In this document: piece after piece, positions 2,526 through 16,735 of the stretch
Numbering within the stretch: position 1 is the first letter of the stretch
How the letters are laid out: each line of letters opens with the position of its first letter
Assembly (NCBI GenBank): GCA_002104895.1
Contig: MCFG01000018.1
Coordinates: 272,501 to 300,000, forward strand
DNA: 27,500 nucleotides
DNA from: Anaeromyces robustus
Taxonomy: Eukaryota; Neocallimastigomycota; Neocallimastigomycetes; Neocallimastigales; Neocallimastigaceae
Direction of reading: 5' to 3'
Program-made: the position numbers and the translations under genes
The notes under the pieces: generated by a model
What the model was told of the DNA's origin: nothing
Databases searched by the model: none
What the model saw: only the letters and a program-made list of their open reading frames with translations

Positions 2526-5052
2526 TCAAAATATATTAAGAAAATACAGTTTTATTATAAGTTAAATTAAGTTATTTACATAATATATTACTTCTTTTAT
2601 TTTCTTTTTTTTTATTTTATTTTATTTTATTTTTATTTTTATTTTATTCTTTTTGTTTATTATATAAATAATATTAATAATATACCTCATTATTAAAACT
2701 TTTTTTTCTTAATATTAACGGTTTCAAAATATTTATTGATATTATAGTTTTAAACGAACAATTATATTGATATCTATACAATATCAAAAAAAAAAAAAAA
2801 TTTTTTTTTTGTTTATAAAGTAAATAGATATGCTCCAAAGTTATCAGAAAAATCCATATGGATGGATGATTTTGAAATGTGCAGTATTATATTCTAATAA
2901 TGAAGTATTGCAACGAGTTTTAAAGGCAAAAGATGCCAAAGGAAACAAACTTATTGATATTAATTATAAAGATGATTTTGGATATACAGCATTATCAATA
3001 GCAGAAGATATGGGTGATGAGGATAAAATGATTTTGTTGTTAAAAAATGATGCTAATATAGAGTTAACAAAAAATAATTCAAAAAAGGAGGTAAGTAAAA
3101 AACTTAAATATCTTCAAGAATGTATAGAAAATGCCAGTAAAAAATTTGTAGAAGCCGTATATCTCAGTAATATAAAAGGGACAGAATATATCAAAAGGAT
3201 AGAATCTATGTTAGAAAATAAATATGTTAATATTAACTCAAAAATGAAAAATCCAAATCCTACAGAAACATTCGATATTTATCCATTAATTTTTGCATCA
3301 GAATTTGGACGTAAAGATATAGTTAAATTATTATTGAAACAACCAAATATTAATATTAATATCCGAGATAATCTTGGACTTACAGCATTAATATGTGCAG
3401 CAGAAAATGGAAAAGAAGATGTAATTAAATTATTGTTAAAACAACCTGATATTGATGTTAATATACAAGGTAATAATGGTGTTACAGCATTAATATTAGC
3501 AGCAAGAAATAATCATTGTAAAGTTATTGATTTGTTATTGGAACATCCTGATATCGATGTTAATAAAAGAGATTTAGGTGGAAGTACCGCATTGATGCGT
3601 GCCGTGGATAAAGGAAATGAGGATGCTGTTAAATCACTACTAAAACATTATAATCTCGACATCGGTATTAAAAATAAGATGGGAATCATAGAACTACGGA
3701 AAAATCCAGAAATCGGAGATGTACTCAAAGATGGAATCACTGCATGTAATTATGCCTCATCGAAAGGGTATGATAAAATAGAAAAATTATTAGAAAATCA
3801 TACTCCAGAATTAATCAATGCAGCAAAGAATGGACAACATGAAAAAATTCATCAATGACTCTTACTTCATAAAAATATCAATATTAATATTAAAGATAAT
3901 GAGGGATGTACAGCACTGATATATGCGGCAGAGAAGGGTCATTATGAAACGGTGAAAATTTTATTAAAACAACCTAATATTGATATAAACCACCAAGATA
4001 TTATAGGATATACAGCATTGATGTGGGCAGCACAAAATGGTTTTAATAAAGTGGTTGATTTATTGTTAAAACAACCTAGAATTAATGTTAATGCTAAAAC
4101 GAATGAAGGAGGAACAGCTTTGATGTTTGTAGCTGAGAAAAATCATAAGGAAATAGCTAGATCATTATTAAAACATCCAAATATCAATATTAATATACAA
4201 AGTCGAAATAAAAGTACTGCATTAATTCAAGCAGCAATGTTAGGTCATAAAGAAATTGTTGAAATGTTATTGAAACAAAAAAATATTCATATTAATGATC
4301 AAAATAATGATGGTTTTACAGCGTTAATGTATGCAGCATCAAAGGGTTATAAAGATATTGTCAAACTGTTTCTGGAACATAAAAATATTAATGTTAATAT
4401 ACAAAATTGTGAAGGATTTACCTCCTTGATGTATGCAGCATGCAAAGGATTTCATGAAGTGGTCCAACTACTATTAAATCATCCAACTACTGATATTACT
4501 ATTGCTATTGAAGGTCCTGATATTTTGGCCATGGATGCCATGCTATGTGCAATATATAATGGACAAAAAGAAATAGTAAAATTGTTATTGAATTATATAG
4601 AAGATAATCATCTAGATATTAAATATCCTATTGATGAAACTCTTGATTTTGATGGAAATTATTATTTATTCTTAGCAGTAATAAATGGTCATGAAGAAAT
4701 TGTTGAATTATTAATTGAACGTGGTGCTGATATAAATAAAAAGAATTCACAAGGATTTAATCAATTAATGTGTGCTATTGATTATGGATGTGAAAATATG
4801 GTTGAATTATTATTGAAACATGGAGCAGATATAAATGATAGTAATAATATCTATGGAATTTCACCATTAATGATGGCTGTTGATGAAGGAAGTGCAAGAC
4901 TTGTTGAGATATTATTAAATCAACCAGGTATTGATTTAGATGTTGTTAATATTTATGGTGATACAGCTTTAACTTTTGCTCATAGAAGAGGTAGAATGAA
5001 GATTGTTAGATTAATCTTATTCAAAATGATTGCCTTAAGTCAATGGACAGAT

Positions 5053-5193
5053 CCAGTGAAGAAGGAGGAAGTTTTACATTATCAACGTATTGAACCTGTT
5101 AAGGAAGAAATTTTAAAAGATCAAAAATATGAACCTGTTAAGGAAGAAATTTTACAAAGTCAACAATATGAATCCCTCAAAGAAGAAATTAAG
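5053..5193 (+). repeat. 13-codon tandem repeat forming a charged linker in the ankyrin-toxin locus
   Basis: Two exact-length 39-base units encode PVKEEIL followed by a Q-containing segment and YE. They are flanked by two degenerate units (PVKKEEVL before, SLKEEIK after). The lysine/glutamate-rich sequence is predicted helical or coiled-coil-like by composition. It separates the two ankyrin blocks. Confidence 0.75.
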
Positions 5194-5772
5194 CATCTTT
5201 CAATTAAAGAAAAGGAGGAAAGATTTTTCAAGGCCGTTTCTCAAGGAAATATTGATGAAATAGATTTGTTATTGGAAACGAATACAATGGATAATAATAA
5301 ACCTGTTAATGTTAATATGGTGAATAAAAAAGGTGATACTGGTTTGATCATTGCCTCTGAAAAGGGAAATTTGGACATGGTAAAATTACTTTTAGAATAT
5401 AAAGCAGATCTTAAATTTAAAGATACTAATGGGAATAATGCATTAATTAGAGCAGCAAAAAATGGATGTTTTAGGGTTGTTGATGTATTATTACGTAACA
5501 AAATAGGTATTAATTCCTCTAATCATTATAAAAGAACAGCATTAATGGAAGCAACAGAAGGTGGTCATATTTGTATAGTAAAATTATTAATTAAGAATGG
5601 AGCTAAAGTTGCTATTAAAGATAAATTTGGTAAGACTGCTTTAGATATTTTAAATGGAATAGGTCGTAAATCCAGTAATTATACCTCTATTAAAAAAATC
5701 TTGGAAAAAAAAATTAGTGAGCCTAATAATTCGTTGGAGGAAGACGTAGAGAAACCAGTTTTATTAAATGAA

Positions 5773-6051
5773 TGGGAAATTGTTAGGGATAAAAACTTTG
5801 AAAAAGATTTAAATCTTTTGGATGATAATAATTCTAGTAAGGTAAAAATGTTAATTAATGATATTCGACGTAATCCATTTGAAGGAGGTGGTGGACAAGT
5901 AGAATGTTTATCAAAAGATATGGGTGGATTATATTCTAGGAGAATAAATAAAAAAGATCGATTAGTCTATGGAGTAGATGGAGAAAAAGTTATTCTTAGG
6001 TCATGTAAAGGACATTATAAACGAGAAAAAAGAAAAAGTACCAAGATTTAA
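5773..6051 (+). other. YoeB/Txe-like toxin domain plus basic tail (domain within the 2830-6051 locus)
   Basis: Seen in the translation, in order: WEIV; a region with KVKMLINDIRRNPFEG; a glycine-rich turn with a glutamate; GGLYSRRINKKDRLVYGV; and a final CKGHY. From memory of E. coli YoeB (84 residues), these match its RRTPFEG, SGFWSRRI, HRLVYAV and RYHY segments. The residues known to matter there (Glu46, Arg59, Arg65, His83, Tyr84) all have counterparts. The family is a bacterial ribosome-dependent mRNA interferase, normally a stand-alone protein paired with the YefM antitoxin. Here no antitoxin-like gene is visible next to it. Unlike YoeB, which stops at HY, ten more mostly basic residues (KREKRKSTKI) follow. 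Codon use is as A+T-rich as in the ankyrin part, so a transfer, if real, is not recent. Confidence 0.85.
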
Positions 6052-7024: not shown

Positions 7025-9652
7025 CTATAATTCACCATTTGGACGAAGTTTACTAGTATTAGCAGCGGCAGCTGCTTTTTCTTCTTCAATAGCTTCTAAG
7101 GTAGCACCTCTGAAAACTTCTAAAATATTTAATCTGGTCTTGAAATTATCATAAAATTGATCATCAACATTAAGAGTTTTAAGAATTTTTTCTACACGTT
7201 CACATTCTCTGAAAATAAAATCTCTATCATCAGTAATTTTTTGAATGATCTTGTAATAGAATTTAGTAGAACTATTCATATTATATAATATTATATATTA
7301 TTATATATATATAATATAATACAAAATAATAAATATTATATGATATATAGAATTAATAAATATGATATTACATATAATTAATAATATTTATATATAATAA
7401 AAAAAAAATAACCAAATAAAAAAAAAATTCAAATAAAAGTGTTATTAAATAAATAAATAAATAAATAAATACCTGTTCTTTTTATCTAAAGAAAATATAC
7501 GCATATAGTTGAGTAAATCACCTCTTTGAACAGGGTTATTACTTAAAACATATTTTTTGACCATTTTATCCATATCATAATCTCTACCAGCCTATATTTA
7601 TTTATTAAATAAATAAATATATATATATATATATATTCAAAATAGTTAAATATAAATATATATATATATTTTATATAATAAATTATAGAAATCATTATTT
7701 AATTTAATTATTATTATTATTTTCTCAATTTTAACTTACTCCGTTATTTAAACCACCACCTACAGTACGGAAAGTGTCACATTTATCATTAAGGTATCTA
7801 ACGAAATCCTAATAATAATAATAATATCATAATAAAATTAAATAAATATATCTATAATCTTTATTTATTTATTTTTATTTTTTTCTTTTTTTTTTTTTTT
7901 TTTTTTTTTAATAAACTTACAGCTTCTTCAACACCGTTATCATAAGGTTCTGGGTTAGAATTACGTTTATTAGCTTCGAAAAAGTAAATAGTCTAATGAT
8001 TTAAACATAAAATGAATAAATTTTTGAATATAACTAATTAAGTGAAATTAGATTTAAAAATTATAATTATTTTATTTCGAAGAACTAAATAAAAAAAAGA
8101 AAAAAAAGATACTTACTGGGAAACTACCAATGAGGTATCTTTTTGATTAATTATATATAAATAAAATATAAATGAATAAATAATTTTAATAATAATTTTA
8201 ATATATAAAAAAAAAAATATTTTAACATTCATTATATATTATTTTTTTATTATTTATTATTTTTATTTTAATTATTATTATTAATTTTGTTATTATTTTT
8301 GATTATTTTACCTTGTACCTAAATCAACATTAGCAGTAGCATCAACTCTAGCAATAATAACATTCTTTTCTTTATGGAAATCCTTAGCAACTTTTTCATA
8401 AGTTGGTTGTAATTTTTTACAATGACCACACCATGGAGCATAGAAAAGAACCTATTATGAATAGAAATATATATGAAATAATTAAATAGTGTTAAAAAAA
8501 TTTTTTTTTTTTTTGTTAAAAATCAAAAACAAATATATAAATATATAAATATATATAAATAATAATAATAATAAAATATATATATATATTATTTTCTAGG
8601 ATATTAAATTATTTAAATATATATTACCATAACATGATTCTTTGGATCACCAACAACTTCATCAAAGTTACTTTCATCAAGTTCAACAACATAACTTCTA
8701 ATTGACTTTGGTTTACCGATAAGACCTGTTTTTTCATCAATAAATTTAACAAATTCTTCTAAACTTCTTTCTTTATCATAAAGAATACCTTTTTTATCTT
8801 GTGGCATATATAATTTGATAGTCTTTTTTCGGGATATTAATTTTTATTTTATCATATATTAATTATATATTTAATAAAAAAAAAAAAAAAGAAAAGAGTA
8901 ATAATATATAAAAGAGTTTTTTCATTTTGTTTTTTTTTTTAGTAAATAGAATATAAAATATCATTAAATAGATATTTTTATAATATAATACTAACTGGAT
9001 AACTTTTAACTCCTTGAGATTTTGCAAGTTCCTTGTATTTATCACCATCAATTTTGGAAATGTAAACTTTTTCCTTAACATGTTCGTAGGCTTCAGCAAC
9101 TAAATCATAAGTTGGTTTTAAATTCTATAATTTCATATTATATAGAAAAAAACGAAAAAATAAAAAAAAGAAATAAAAAGTATAAAAAAAAGTATAAAAA
9201 AGTAAAGTAAAATAAAAAAAAATTAAAATTATTAATATGTTTTAACTACAATTTAATTATTAATATGTATATCATAATATATACTTTACAGTGACCGCAC
9301 CATGGAGCATAAAATTCAACTAAAATTGGTACATCACCACCAATTAACTATTTTTTTTAATAAAAAAAAATAATTGTTAATATTTATCAAATTTATCAAG
9401 TAAAAATACTTTTTTTTTTTCTTCAAGTTATATTAATAATGATACAATAATAATAATAATAATATCATAAATGTTATTTTATTATTATTACTGTTATTTT
9501 TATTAAAATATATTTTTCTTATATATTATATATATTTTTTGAATTTAAATAATTACTTCATTAAATTTTGTGTCATCAAGTTCAACCATACCGGCTGAAA
9601 CAAAGCTTATACAGAAAACCAATAATGCTAATAATATACTTCTTTTAAACAT
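7025..9652 (-). CDS. Protein disulfide isomerase, two CGHC domains plus ERp29-type C-terminal domain (10 exons)
   Basis: ER enzyme that forms and reshuffles disulfides in secreted proteins. Exons by eye, in gene order: 9652-9557, 9347-9285, 9124-8996, 8822-8628, 8451-8312, 8138-8117, 7992-7921, 7808-7740, 7591-7473, 7271-7025. All nine introns (112-209 bp) are GT..AG and keep frame, giving about 383 residues. Residues 1-20 are a signal peptide (FKRS, then a hydrophobic run to SFVSA). Thioredoxin domain a has [10 protein letters not shown] with CGHC at 49-52, and domain a' has CGHC at 169-172. Each keeps the family's cis-proline (SYP-TIKLY and SFP-TIYFF, both split by introns). From about 265 an alpha-helical ERp29/ERp38-type domain follows. 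This a-a'-D order is known in some fungal, plant and Dictyostelium PDIs. The terminus is NGEL rather than KDEL/HDEL. The start is the only ATG ahead of the signal peptide. Confidence 0.93.
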
Positions 9653-13402: not shown

Positions 13403-16400
13403 ATGACGAAAAAACAATTACAAATTAATGCATTCGTCGAAGCTATCGATAATAAAAATATTAAAGATATAAAAGATATAGAAGATATAATAACGAATAA
13501 TATAAATAATGATATTGCTTTAGAATTAAATAATAATAATTTACTTACTTCTGAAAGATTACAATTTCTATTTGAAAATTATTCTAAATATTTAAAAATT
13601 TCTTTCACATTAATTAACAAATTATTCCATGAAGATAATTTCGAATTACTAGATATTATTTTTAATAATATTTATTTTTTTAATAATGAAGCGATTTTAA
13701 ATTTACTTAATCATTACAAAAATAAAATTTCAATTTCTATCTCAAATTTAAATCAATTAATTATTAATTATAAAATTTCAACAAAAAAGGATAAAACCAT
13801 TTGGAATAATTATTATAATTCTAGTAATATTTATTTACTAAATACTTGTGAAAATCGAAAATATGATTTATTCGAATATTTATATAAACATATTAAAATA
13901 GATATAAAAAATATAAGAGGCAAAAATGGTGAAACTCTATTATTTAAGGCTTGTGAAAATGGTAATATTAATTTAGTATTATTTTTAATTAAACTTGGAG
14001 AGGATATAAATACTGAAAATAGTTATAATGAAACCCCATTATTTAAAGCATGTTCTAGTGGAAATAAAAACTTAGTAAAACTTTTAATTGAATTAGGAGC
14101 AGATATAAATAAAGAAAATAATATTGGTGAAACACCATTATTTGAGGCCTGTTCCAGTGGAAATGAAAATTTAGTAAAATATTTATATGAATCATTGAAA
14201 GTAAATATTTATAAAAAGAATTATTTGGGTGAAACGCCAATATTTAAAGCATGTTCCAGTGGGAATGAAAATTTAGTAAAATATTTAATTAAACTTGGTT
14301 TAGATATAAATAAAGAAAATGATATGGCTAAAACTCCATTTTTTAATGCATGTGAAAGTGGGAATGAAAATTTAGTAAAATATTTAATTAAACTTGGTGT
14401 AGTAGATATAAATAAAGAAAATCGGGAAAATGAAACACCATTATTTGAAGCATGTGAAAGTGGGAATGAAAATTTAGTAAAATATTTAATTAAATTAGGA
14501 GCAGATGTCAATAAAGAAAATAATAATAGTGAAACCATATTATTTAAAGCCTGTCAAAAGGGAAATGAAAATTTAGTAAAATATTTAATTGAATTAGGAA
14601 TAGATATCAATAAAGATAATGAAATGTTTAAAACACCATTATTTGAAGCATGTTTAAGTGGGAATGAAAATTTAGTAAAATATTTAATTAAATTAGGAAC
14701 AGATGTTAATAAAAAGGTTAGAGGAGGTGAAACACCATTATTTAATGCCTGTTTAAGTGGAAATGAAAATTTAGTAAAATATTTAATTGAGTCGGTTAGA
14801 GTACAAAGTATAAATAAAATAAATATATTGAATGAAATACCTTTTTTTAATGCCTGTAAATCTGGAAATAAAAATTTAGTAAATTATTTAGTTAAAAAAT
14901 TTGGTGTAAAACCAAATTATAAAAATAGATATGGTGAAACACCATTATTTTATGCTTGTTTAAGTGGAAATGAAGATATTGTAAAAGAATTAATTGAATT
15001 AGGCGTAGATATTCATGTCAAAAGTAAATATGGTGATACACCATTATTTCATGCTTGTCAAAATGGAAATTTAAATATTGTAAAATATTTAATTAAATTA
15101 GGTGCTGATATTAATGAAGAAAATTGGAATAATGAAACACCAATATTTAAAGCATGTTCTAGTGGGAATGAAAATTTAGTTAAATATTTAATTAAATTAG
15201 GAGCAAATATAAATAAAGAAGATTATAAGGGGGAAACACCATTATTTGATGCCTGTCACAGTGGAAATGAAAATTTGGTAAAATATTTAATTAAATTAGG
15301 AGCAGATATCCATAAAGAAAATCATCAAAATGGTGAAACACCATTATTTGTTTCTTGTAAAAAAGGAAATGAAAATTTGGTAAAATATTTAATTAAATTA
15401 GGAGCAGATATCCATAAAGAAAATCATCAAGATGGTGAAACACCATTATTTAAAGCCTGTTTAAGTGGGAATGAAAATTTAGTTAAATATTTAATTAAAT
15501 TAGGAGCAAATATAAATAAAGAAAATAGGAATGGTGAAACTCCATTATTTACAGCATGTTATCAAAAAAATGAAAATAATATAAAATACTTAATTGAATT
15601 AGGAGCAAATATAAATAAAGTAAATAGGAATGGTGAAACTCCAATATTTGGAGCATGTTTAAATGGAAATATAAATATTGTAAAATATTTAATGGAATTA
15701 GGAGCAGATATCAATAAAGAAAATAGTGAAGGTGAAACCCCATTATTTAATGCATGTATTAGTGAAAATGCGGATTTAATAAAATATTTAATTGAATTAG
15801 GAAGAGTAGATTTAGATAAAAGTGTAGATATAGATAAAAGTGTAGATATAGATAAAGGTGTAGGTACAGGTGTAGGTACAGGTGTAGGTGTAGATAAAGG
15901 TGTAAATACAAGTGTAGATGTAGGTGTAGATATAGATGAAAGTGTAAGTTCAAGTGCAAGTACAGGTGTAGGTGTAGAAGTAGGTGTAGATATCAATAAA
16001 GAAAAACATAATGAAGAAACACCATTATTTTATGCCTGTTCAAGGAATAGAAATGAAACTATAATTAAATATTTAATTGAAGCCGGAGCGGATGTCAATA
16101 AAGAAAATACCTCTAAGGAAACTCCATTAATTGATGCATGTTTAAAAGGAAATGAAAAAGCAGTAAAATATTTAATTGAAGCAGGAGCTGATGTTAATAA
16201 AATAACTAAAAGACGAGAAAGTCCATTGCTTATAGCCTGTTGTAATGGAAATGAAAAAATTATAAAATATTTAATTGAAGCAGGAGCAGAAGTTAATCAA
16301 GGAAATGATGAAGATGAAACCCCTTTATTTTTTGCCTGTGTTCGAGGAAATGAAAATATTATAAAATATTTAGTAGAACATGGAGCAGATGTGAATAAAG

Positions 16401-16735
16401 AAAATTATGATGGCGAAACACCATTATTTAATGCTTGTTGGAGTGAAAAAAAAAATATAATTAAATATTTAATTGATAAAGGAGCAGATATCAATAAAAC
16501 AAATGATGAAGAAGAATCACCAATATTTGGAGCCTGTATAAAAGGAAATGAATTATTAGTAAAATATTTAGTAGAATTAGGGGCAGATATTAATATAATA
16601 AATGAAGAAGGGGAAACACCATTATTACGAGCCTGTGAAGTTGGAAATCAAAAATTAATAATGTATTTAATTGATAATGGAGCAAAAGTCAATAAAAGAA
16701 ATATTAAAGCGGTTAGGAAAGCATTAAATATTTAA
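13403..16735 (+). CDS. Large ankyrin-repeat protein (1110 residues, 26 clear repeats)
   Basis: An intronless open frame runs from the ATG at 13403, the first in frame after A-rich leader DNA, to TAA at 16733-16735. Residues 1 to about 170 are an N/K/I-rich, mostly helical region with a degenerate ankyrin-like end. From about 175 to 1105, 26 units of mainly 33 residues follow. Each has the (G/N)ETPLFxACxxGN helix 1, the ENLVKYLIxLG helix 2 and the ADINKEN loop. No signal peptide, membrane segment or catalytic domain is visible, so a cytosolic or nuclear protein-binding scaffold is the best guess. Partner and role are unknown. Unlike the locus at 2830-6051, it has no toxin-like C-terminus. Two decayed paralogues lie upstream. 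One loop carries a 60-codon V-D/V-G expansion, and two neighbouring repeats are nearly identical in DNA. Confidence 0.92.
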   Translation: MTKKQLQINAFVEAIDNKNIKDIKDIEDIITNNINNDIALELNNNNLLTSERLQFLFENYSKYLKISFTLINKLFHEDNFELLDIIFNNIYFFNNEAILNLLNHYKNKISISISNLNQLIINYKISTKKDKTIWNNYYNSSNIYLLNTCENRKYDLFEYLYKHIKIDIKNIRGKNGETLLFKACENGNINLVLFLIKLGEDINTENSYNETPLFKACSSGNKNLVKLLIELGADINKENNIGETPLFEACSSGNENLVKYLYESLKVNIYKKNYLGETPIFKACSSGNENLVKYLIKLGLDINKENDMAKTPFFNACESGNENLVKYLIKLGVVDINKENRENETPLFEACESGNENLVKYLIKLGADVNKENNNSETILFKACQKGNENLVKYLIELGIDINKDNEMFKTPLFEACLSGNENLVKYLIKLGTDVNKKVRGGETPLFNACLSGNENLVKYLIESVRVQSINKINILNEIPFFNACKSGNKNLVNYLVKKFGVKPNYKNRYGETPLFYACLSGNEDIVKELIELGVDIHVKSKYGDTPLFHACQNGNLNIVKYLIKLGADINEENWNNETPIFKACSSGNENLVKYLIKLGANINKEDYKGETPLFDACHSGNENLVKYLIKLGADIHKENHQNGETPLFVSCKKGNENLVKYLIKLGADIHKENHQDGETPLFKACLSGNENLVKYLIKLGANINKENRNGETPLFTACYQKNENNIKYLIELGANINKVNRNGETPIFGACLNGNINIVKYLMELGADINKENSEGETPLFNACISENADLIKYLIELGRVDLDKSVDIDKSVDIDKGVGTGVGTGVGVDKGVNTSVDVGVDIDESVSSSASTGVGVEVGVDINKEKHNEETPLFYACSRNRNETIIKYLIEAGADVNKENTSKETPLIDACLKGNEKAVKYLIEAGADVNKITKRRESPLLIACCNGNEKIIKYLIEAGAEVNQGNDEDETPLFFACVRGNENIIKYLVEHGADVNKENYDGETPLFNACWSEKKNIIKYLIDKGADINKTNDEEESPIFGACIKGNELLVKYLVELGADINIINEEGETPLLRACEVGNQKLIMYLIDNGAKVNKRNIKAVRKALNI
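15263..15451 (+). repeat. Recent 102-bp duplication of one ankyrin unit
   Basis: The 87 bases from 15263 and those from 15365 differ at one position (AAT/GAT in the HQNGETP/HQDGETP turn). Both units are 34 rather than 33 residues long. Other repeats in the array differ much more. Confidence 0.85.
15806..15985 (+). repeat. In-frame hexanucleotide expansion inside an ankyrin loop
   Basis: About 180 bases are built from GTAGAT, GTAGGT, ACAGGT and AGTGTA-type hexamers. They encode about 60 residues (802-861) of V-D, V-G and T-G dipeptides with DIDKSVDIDKGVGTGVG-like order. The block sits where a repeat's VDINKE loop should be and ends by resuming VDINKE, so it looks like slippage growth of that loop. 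It is the most G-rich stretch of the gene. Confidence 0.85.

Follow-up and report, generated by a model that had tools for sequence, protein, structure and literature searches.

An interrupted ankyrin-YoeB gene of the anaerobic fungus Anaeromyces robustus and its probable origin in an effector family of symbiotic Alphaproteobacteria

The window analyzed here is a 27,500-nucleotide stretch of the Anaeromyces robustus genome (GenBank assembly GCA_002104895.1, contig MCFG01000018.1, positions 272,501 to 300,000 of the forward strand). It carries a gene copy in which an array of ankyrin repeats is followed by a domain of the YoeB/Txe toxins. The frame spans 2824-6051 on the plus strand, with an ATG at 2830 and a stop codon at 6049-6051. 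Its only internal stop is an in-frame TGA at 3856-3858, which may be a real lesion or else a sequencing error. The open reading frames (ORFs) 2824-3858 and 3859-6051 share one reading frame, and a profile search found ankyrin repeats on either side of the TGA (Ank_2; E 3e-36 for 2824-3855 and 2e-98 for 3859-6051). The original prediction, made from the letters of the window, had placed an ankyrin array and a YoeB/Txe domain in one frame interrupted about once, and both statements were borne out. The parts of the gene copy are listed below.

2830..6051, plus strand: ankyrin-YoeB gene copy, one frame with a single interruption (ORFs, Ank_2)
2830..3855, plus strand: N-terminal ankyrin part, equivalent to the N-terminal module of the family with a shortened start (Ank_2, E 3e-36; module, E 5e-20)
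3856..3858, plus strand: in-frame TGA (sequence)
3859..5199, plus strand: central ankyrin array (Ank_2, E 2e-98 for 3859-6051)
5200..5769, plus strand: family-specific C-terminal ankyrin module and linker (a search with 5221-5769 recovers the eight YoeB loci of the genome)
5770..6018, plus strand: YoeB/Txe mRNA-interferase domain (PF06769, TIGR02116, Protein Data Bank (PDB) match)
5902..5904, plus strand: codon for the equivalent of Glu46 of E. coli YoeB, the general base (alignment; role from PMC3814384)
5959..5961, plus strand: codon for the Arg65 equivalent (alignment; role from the same text)
6013..6018, plus strand: codons for the His83-Tyr84 equivalents (alignment; role from the same text)
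6019..6048, plus strand: short basic tail behind the HY (translation)

The C-terminus of the window copy scored 60.3 bits against PF06769 (cut-off 27), so that the Pfam check proposed with the prediction gave a significant match, and 60.6 bits against TIGR02116, whose cut-off of 51.8 was exceeded by all 10 domains tested (8 fungal and 2 bacterial). The best PDB match was E. coli YoeB (2a6q, E 7.5e-11). A match from the N-terminal strand of YoeB to its final HY had been predicted; it does end at the HY, whereas the first strand is weak, the Pfam match starting at profile position 16-17 (position 2-8 in the seven sister copies). In an alignment to E. coli YoeB, the equivalents of Glu46, Arg65, His83, and Tyr84 were identical in 23 of 23 rows, the rows having been located by an HY-containing motif that none of them lacks; Lys49 was variable. 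In the 2013 YoeB-ribosome paper, Glu46 is the general base, His83 the general acid, and Arg65 the transition-state stabiliser, Tyr84 is needed for activity, and Arg59 and Glu63 are among the mRNA-contacting residues (PMC3814384). A tail follows Tyr84 in most copies; that of the window copy has ten residues and a basic character.

PF06769 matched eight loci in the 70-Mb assembly, mostly in long ankyrin frames (all 9 candidates scored), and a search with the YoeB domain of the window recovered the same eight. The prediction that the window copy may have active relatives elsewhere in the genome held as to the relatives, which may be active. We analyzed frames in 10 kb around each of the seven other loci, which are named here after their contigs. 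Five copies (C734, C456, C64, C23, and C128) were uninterrupted, with 1097-1481 amino acids from stop to stop and low GC. C11 is broken, with two overlapping frames and a further stop near the start, and the frame of C189 is partly unreadable.

Both ends of the ankyrin array are characteristic of the family. A search with the C-terminal module (window 5221-5769) found the eight YoeB loci at E<=3e-31, and the next ankyrin followed at 2e-19 (150 of 1905 candidates scored). With the N-terminal module of a bacterial relative, L016, as the query, nine places were found: the seven YoeB genes other than C189, with two places in C734, and a remnant on contig C224 (150 of 280 candidates scored). C189 is unreadable in this region. 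The window copy is shorter than its sisters at the N-terminal end and matched this module only from query residue 24 (E 5e-20). The C224 remnant (L087:4858-6724) has ankyrin repeats in two frames and lacks YoeB. We rejected the idea that these terminal modules are shared with other toxin domains, since the N-terminal module occurred only in YoeB genes and the one YoeB-less remnant, and the C-terminal module scored far above other ankyrins.

The prediction had noted no antitoxin-like gene next to the window copy. PF02604 (YefM/Phd antitoxins) had no match genome-wide, with positive results in 8 of 14 controls, and a fungal antitoxin partner was rejected on that ground; the fungal search covered YefM-type antitoxins and did not extend to RelB or ribbon-helix-helix antitoxins. 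ParE/RelE-type toxins (PF05016) were also absent from the fungal genome. In two of the fungal copies (L010 and L013), long poly-asparagine linkers precede YoeB, as if expanded after transfer, and L011 has a short poly-glutamine run.

Ankyrin-YoeB relatives were also found in the named fungi Piromyces sp. E2 and Neocallimastix, on contigs of 241 kb and 1.29 Mb. Among database proteins, P0009 is from Piromyces, and P0002, P0008, P0012, P0013, P0014, and P0016 carry no organism assignment. P0001, P0010, and P0015 have the same architecture as the window copy, C11, and C734, respectively, pair with them at 100/100 in a tree of 20 rows, and are likely their orthologues. In this tree, the branch of the window copy had a length of 0.87, that of its sister P0001 a length of 0.22. 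This long branch, the missing start of its N-terminal module, and the stop make the window copy look like a family member in decay. Identity of the C224 remnant was 74%/69% to P0008, an export-signal protein, and 70%/65% to P0016, and did not exceed 40% to any of the set's remaining database proteins. With a GC content at third codon positions (GC3) of 0.29/0.26, it may be one more acquisition that has since broken and has no YoeB.

To find bacterial relatives, GTDB genomes were scanned with an alignment of the YoeB domain, giving 36 loci. The best two, L016 (71% identity over residues 3-97) and L017 (64% over 3-85), were both ankyrin-YoeB genes; the next loci had 38-41% over similar lengths and up to 61% on short segments only. 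The source of L016 is a metagenome-assembled genome (MAG) with the title proteobacterium RUG13554, presumably of rumen origin as we read the RUG prefix; that of L017 is a MAG titled Alphaproteobacteria RGIG8297, from water-buffalo rumen. Named by inspection of translations, miaB-, ybeY-, and corC-like genes lie upstream of L016, and relA/spoT- and argS-like genes upstream of L017, which is directly followed by another ankyrin frame; by their gene content, both contigs are judged bacterial. In L016 and L017, YoeB is the end of an ankyrin protein of 868 or 891 amino acids that starts with an export-signal-like peptide. No antitoxin-like ORF was seen upstream of either by inspection; two further bacterial fusions, L090 and L091, were not inspected for small ORFs.

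We examined 49 genomes of the order to which these MAGs belong. They measure 0.5-1.6 Mb, and several are rich in ankyrin-like candidates. YoeB matched at E<=1e-8 in 11 of them, and three held ankyrin-YoeB fusions, four genes altogether, all four with an MKK-type export-signal-like start as judged by charge and hydrophobicity rather than by a trained predictor. ATP/ADP translocases are typical of intracellular bacteria, and this family (PF03219, TLC) was found in 45 of the 49 genomes, including the three with ankyrin-YoeB, and in none of 14 controls. Given these translocases and the small genomes, the order is probably obligate intracellular.

In a tree of YoeB domains only (66 rows and few columns, C189 having dropped out because of the unreadable stretch in its frame), seven fungal and three bacterial ankyrin forms stood beside three free-standing YoeBs of the same order (84/90). 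A small ORF overlaps just upstream of each of these three; another free-standing YoeB of genome G001, outside that group, adjoins a RelB-type antitoxin. A divergent YoeB-like domain occurs in a 209-amino acid frame (L055/L092, on G002:C24), whose C-terminal extension looks like the one in L057. In a class-wide sample of 385 Alphaproteobacteria, YoeB was found in 37 at E<=1e-6, and besides the two fusions of G001, three of the matches were in frames longer than 500 amino acids. L113 combines an export-signal-like start with Sel1 repeats and a C-terminal YoeB; L114 starts and ends in the same way, with an unrecognised scaffold in place of the Sel1 repeats; in L115, YoeB is in a 547-amino acid frame, with a possible signal in a separate upstream frame (signals judged by eye). 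These architectures suggest that YoeB is a reusable effector part.

C189 is the best single evidence of arrival from a bacterium, and of an arrival later than that of the other copies. Its GC3 was 0.371, compared with 0.12-0.20 for the other seven fungal copies, 0.372 for L016, and 0.437 for L017, and its amino-acid make-up resembles that of L016 and L017. Between the gene and fungal-type DNA of the same contig lies a PGM_PMM_I fragment (PF02878, E 6e-8; L014:1703-2074), which we read as bacterial GlmM. AT-rich fungal-type DNA lies on either side of the insert, which is contiguous with it on the 3' side. In the 20-row tree, which leaves out the long branches L057, L066, and P0003, C189 grouped with the export-signal proteins P0002/P0012 (99/98; 100/98 with those branches included). 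Holding the 12 fungal-labelled rows as one clade against the eight bacterial or export-signal rows was 59 log-likelihood (lnL) units worse (approximately unbiased (AU) test, p 0.0002), and a clade of the genome's own copies and Piromyces P0009 gave p 0.0002 against the same eight rows. The tests therefore reject a single transfer if the export-signal database proteins count as bacterial, but not when C189 is left out or when the bacterial side consists of L016 and L017 only; more than one transfer into anaerobic fungi is likely, not shown. Since export-signal ankyrin-YoeB genes occur in the probably intracellular order and C189 has bacterial-like codons and surroundings, the fusion was most likely acquired ready-made from bacteria. 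The predicted capture of a bacterial mRNA interferase on a protein-binding scaffold holds insofar as the domain sits on an ankyrin array, whereas the fusion was probably not made in a eukaryote. A viral carrier was rejected, as 46 pattern matches in viral_contigs yielded zero confirmed relatives.

We favor, as a reading that is probable though well short of certain, the explanation that symbionts built a family of ankyrin-YoeB effectors, that members of it entered fungal nuclei, and that the window copy is a decaying one. It draws on the architecture, the catalytic residues, the bacterial relatives, one un-ameliorated fungal copy, and purifying selection. The family would have originated in a lineage of Alphaproteobacteria, probably obligate intracellular, that has members in the rumen; there a chromosomal YoeB, freed from its antitoxin, would have gained an export signal and an ankyrin array ahead of it and so become an exported effector. 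Whole genes would then have moved, probably on more than one occasion, into nuclear genomes of anaerobic fungi, where most would have lost the export signal. An export-signal-like start is absent from the window copy, C734, C456, C64, and C128, as judged from the first ATG, and C23 keeps the hydrophobic export-signal stretch in frame with no start codon ahead of it.

Several results weigh against this explanation. The loss of the signal was called from the first in-frame ATG, and an upstream spliced exon would alter the call. In the tree of YoeB domains only, the fourth bacterial form, L091, was placed away from the other family members; a single clade for the 11 ankyrin-YoeB domains was not rejected there (p 0.3), though not demonstrated either. 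Without C189, holding the fungal rows as one clade cost 12 and was not rejected (p 0.2), and the clade of own copies and P0009 gave p 0.26 against L016 and L017 alone and p 0.18 in the tree of known organisms. The rejection of a single fungal origin arises because P0002/P0012 were counted on the bacterial side without an organism assignment. P0011 (868 amino acids, one difference from L016) is the one export-signal database protein with a link to a bacterial contig, and by amino-acid make-up, P0002, P0012, and P0014 were not separable from Piromyces P0009. P0001, P0010, and P0015 were labelled fungal from their pairing alone, not from a record. The C189 region, part of which is unreadable, could still be a chimera. 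Of the eight fungal copies, three are broken or incompletely readable.

As for the mechanism, we infer the direction and number of transfers, the RNase activity, its target, the gating, and the expression. The variable ankyrin array may bind a partner protein and place or restrain the C-terminal YoeB, which would cut mRNA in the ribosomal A site by the chemistry of Glu46/Arg65/His83/Tyr84. For the fungus, in which YoeB would do harm if left unregulated, the simplest working model is an array that holds or addresses the domain. Host translation would be the target of the bacterial protein, and because it would be exported unfolded, the producer's own ribosomes would be spared even with no antitoxin. 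Fungal copies that were retained and lack the signal would act in the cytosol as array-gated ribonucleases, and they may serve defence, mRNA control, or no purpose. YoeB is able to work in eukaryotic cells: expression of the S. pneumoniae protein causes cell death in Arabidopsis (PMC4430920). A more far-reaching proposal is that captured endosymbiont effectors now serve anaerobic fungi as YoeB RNases of their own, gated by ankyrins and free of an antitoxin, which would be the first eukaryotic YoeB system. The array would sense a partner, such as a stress signal or some component of an intracellular bacterium during invasion, and would release the RNase on ribosomes as a cell-autonomous defence or dormancy switch, and the donor order would live inside anaerobic fungi. 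We regard this proposal as rather unlikely.

Whether the fungal copies are functional bears on the strongest alternative, in which symbiont DNA repeatedly lands in fungal nuclei and the copies are neutral relics there. Codon models point to purifying selection on the fungal ankyrin-YoeB copies. For the five uninterrupted copies, the ratio of nonsynonymous to synonymous rates (omega) was 0.131 in YoeB and 0.206 in the C-terminal ankyrin module (MG2K model). For the trio of C23, C456, and C64 (grouped at 92/94), it was 0.054 and 0.217, and a fit with omega=1 was worse by 35.5 (YoeB) and 26.5 (ankyrin module) lnL, differences that are approximate since the null used one kappa fixed at 2; omega of the trio was 0.006-0.06 with GY and 0.05-0.22 with MG models. 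Weaker evidence of constraint came from pairwise NG86 ratios, which were ~0.3 to 0.7 for several fungal pairs, as expected if synonymous sites are saturated in this AT-rich DNA; examples among the fungal copies are 0.12/0.42, 0.34/0.51, and 0.40/0.55. The broken state of the window copy, C11, and the C224 remnant, and the long branch of the window copy suit neutral decay. By contrast, five low-GC frames of 1097-1481 codons without interruption, values of omega well below 1 that are lowest in the YoeB domain, and the architecture kept by the likely orthologues P0001, P0010, and P0015 do not, even though the genes may already have been under part of this constraint while still in bacteria. Functionless relics are accordingly an unlikely account of the family.

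A related alternative is that catalysis was lost or is irrelevant in the fungus and that the YoeB fold serves as a binding module. Arg59, which is also named as a required residue, is conserved in 19 of the 23 aligned rows, the window copy included, and is H, K, K, and T in the other four; Glu63 is kept in only 2 rows and replaced in 21. These replacements and the tails behind Tyr84 fit a change of role, and the replacements also weigh against the favored explanation, whereas the general base, the general acid, Arg65, and Tyr84 are invariant in every row and the YoeB domain is under the strongest constraint. We judge a pure binding module to be quite improbable.

The fusion could also have arisen in the ankyrin-rich fungi and then moved to rumen bacteria. 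Fungal copies are more numerous, some lie deep in the tree when it is rooted on long branches, a single fungal clade is not rejected with known organisms only, and ankyrin families are expanded in anaerobic fungi (PMC8778642). However, the more divergent export-signal ankyrin-YoeB genes and the nearest free-standing YoeBs sit in the bacterial order, C189 has bacterial-like codon usage and adjoins a bacterial gene fragment, and the fungal copy C23 keeps an export-signal-like stretch with no start codon before it; this direction is thus very improbable. Contamination or misassembly, suggested by the bacterial-like composition of C189 and the adjoining unreadable stretch, is largely refuted for the family and extremely improbable, since seven copies are fungal in codon usage, the fusion lies on the two long contigs of named fungal assemblies, and bacterial 16S rRNA was not detected in the assembly (5 of 69 candidates scored).

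A chance match or an assembly join of ankyrin and YoeB was likewise ruled out by the profile scores and by the recurrence of the fusion at eight loci, in the two named fungi, and on bacterial contigs; the possibility, raised with the prediction, that the two parts come from different assembled molecules is refuted by the same recurrence. The family shares with the YoeB/Txe type II toxins (PF06769, TIGR02116) the domain, a score above cut-off, and the equivalents of Glu46, Arg65, His83, and Tyr84. It differs from these small free-standing toxins in that YoeB is the C-terminal domain of long ankyrin proteins (660-1481 amino acids), with no antitoxin-like ORF upstream of L016 and L017 and no PF02604 in the fungal genome.

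An ankyrin array with a C-terminal toxin domain is the architecture of host-directed ankyrin toxins. In PMC3482391, ankyrin proteins with Tox-REase-8 in Wolbachia and Amoebophilus have no immunity genes and were repeatedly passed to animals. Our family resembles them in its probable endosymbiont origin, ankyrin array, C-terminal nuclease, lack of an immunity gene, and transfer to eukaryotes, and differs in having a ribosome-type RNase rather than a restriction-endonuclease fold, in stemming from another bacterial order with rumen members, and in its fungal recipient. The same paper treats latrotoxins as likely acquired from an endosymbiont; latrotoxin C-terminal-domain proteins of endosymbionts and widow spiders also combine an ankyrin scaffold, a C-terminal toxin domain, and a proposed endosymbiont-to-host transfer and reuse, but their toxin domain is described there as a conserved hydrophobic helix and the recipient is an animal. 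Tox-RelE polymorphic toxins are exported proteins that end in a related RNase domain of the BECR fold. PMC3482391 gives them with RHS repeats, HINT peptidase, and Imm54, however, and its first 300,000 characters contain no mention of YoeB. The kind therefore has precedents in the Wolbachia-type ankyrin toxins passed to animals, and ankyrin-YoeB is a variant that we did not find described: the literature searched, which left most subscription papers outside its coverage, held no report of the fusion, and ankyrin, toxin, and YoeB are absent from the main text of PMC6712302 on laterally acquired genes of anaerobic fungi. A transfer from rumen bacteria to anaerobic fungi has been proposed for biosynthetic genes (PMC8106346).

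These results suggest a partnership, undescribed so far as we found, in which probably energy-parasitic Alphaproteobacteria with reduced genomes and rumen members contribute genes that reach the nuclei of anaerobic fungi. They also suggest that a toxin-antitoxin RNase was recruited as an exported effector on repeat scaffolds, ankyrin here and Sel1 or an unrecognised scaffold in other Alphaproteobacteria. The uninterrupted and conserved eukaryotic YoeB genes offer a direct test subject for RNA cleavage by a host-encoded YoeB.

The surroundings of the ankyrin-YoeB copy in the window are ordinary nuclear DNA, with a GC content of 9-30%. Next to the copy, on the other strand, lies a piece with an ERp29 C-terminal domain (7028-7282, minus strand), which probably represents a single exon of a PDI-like gene. 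Farther along, 13406-16732 (plus strand) encodes an unbroken 1109-amino acid ankyrin protein of another type, without YoeB, and the window also contains a protein kinase gene.

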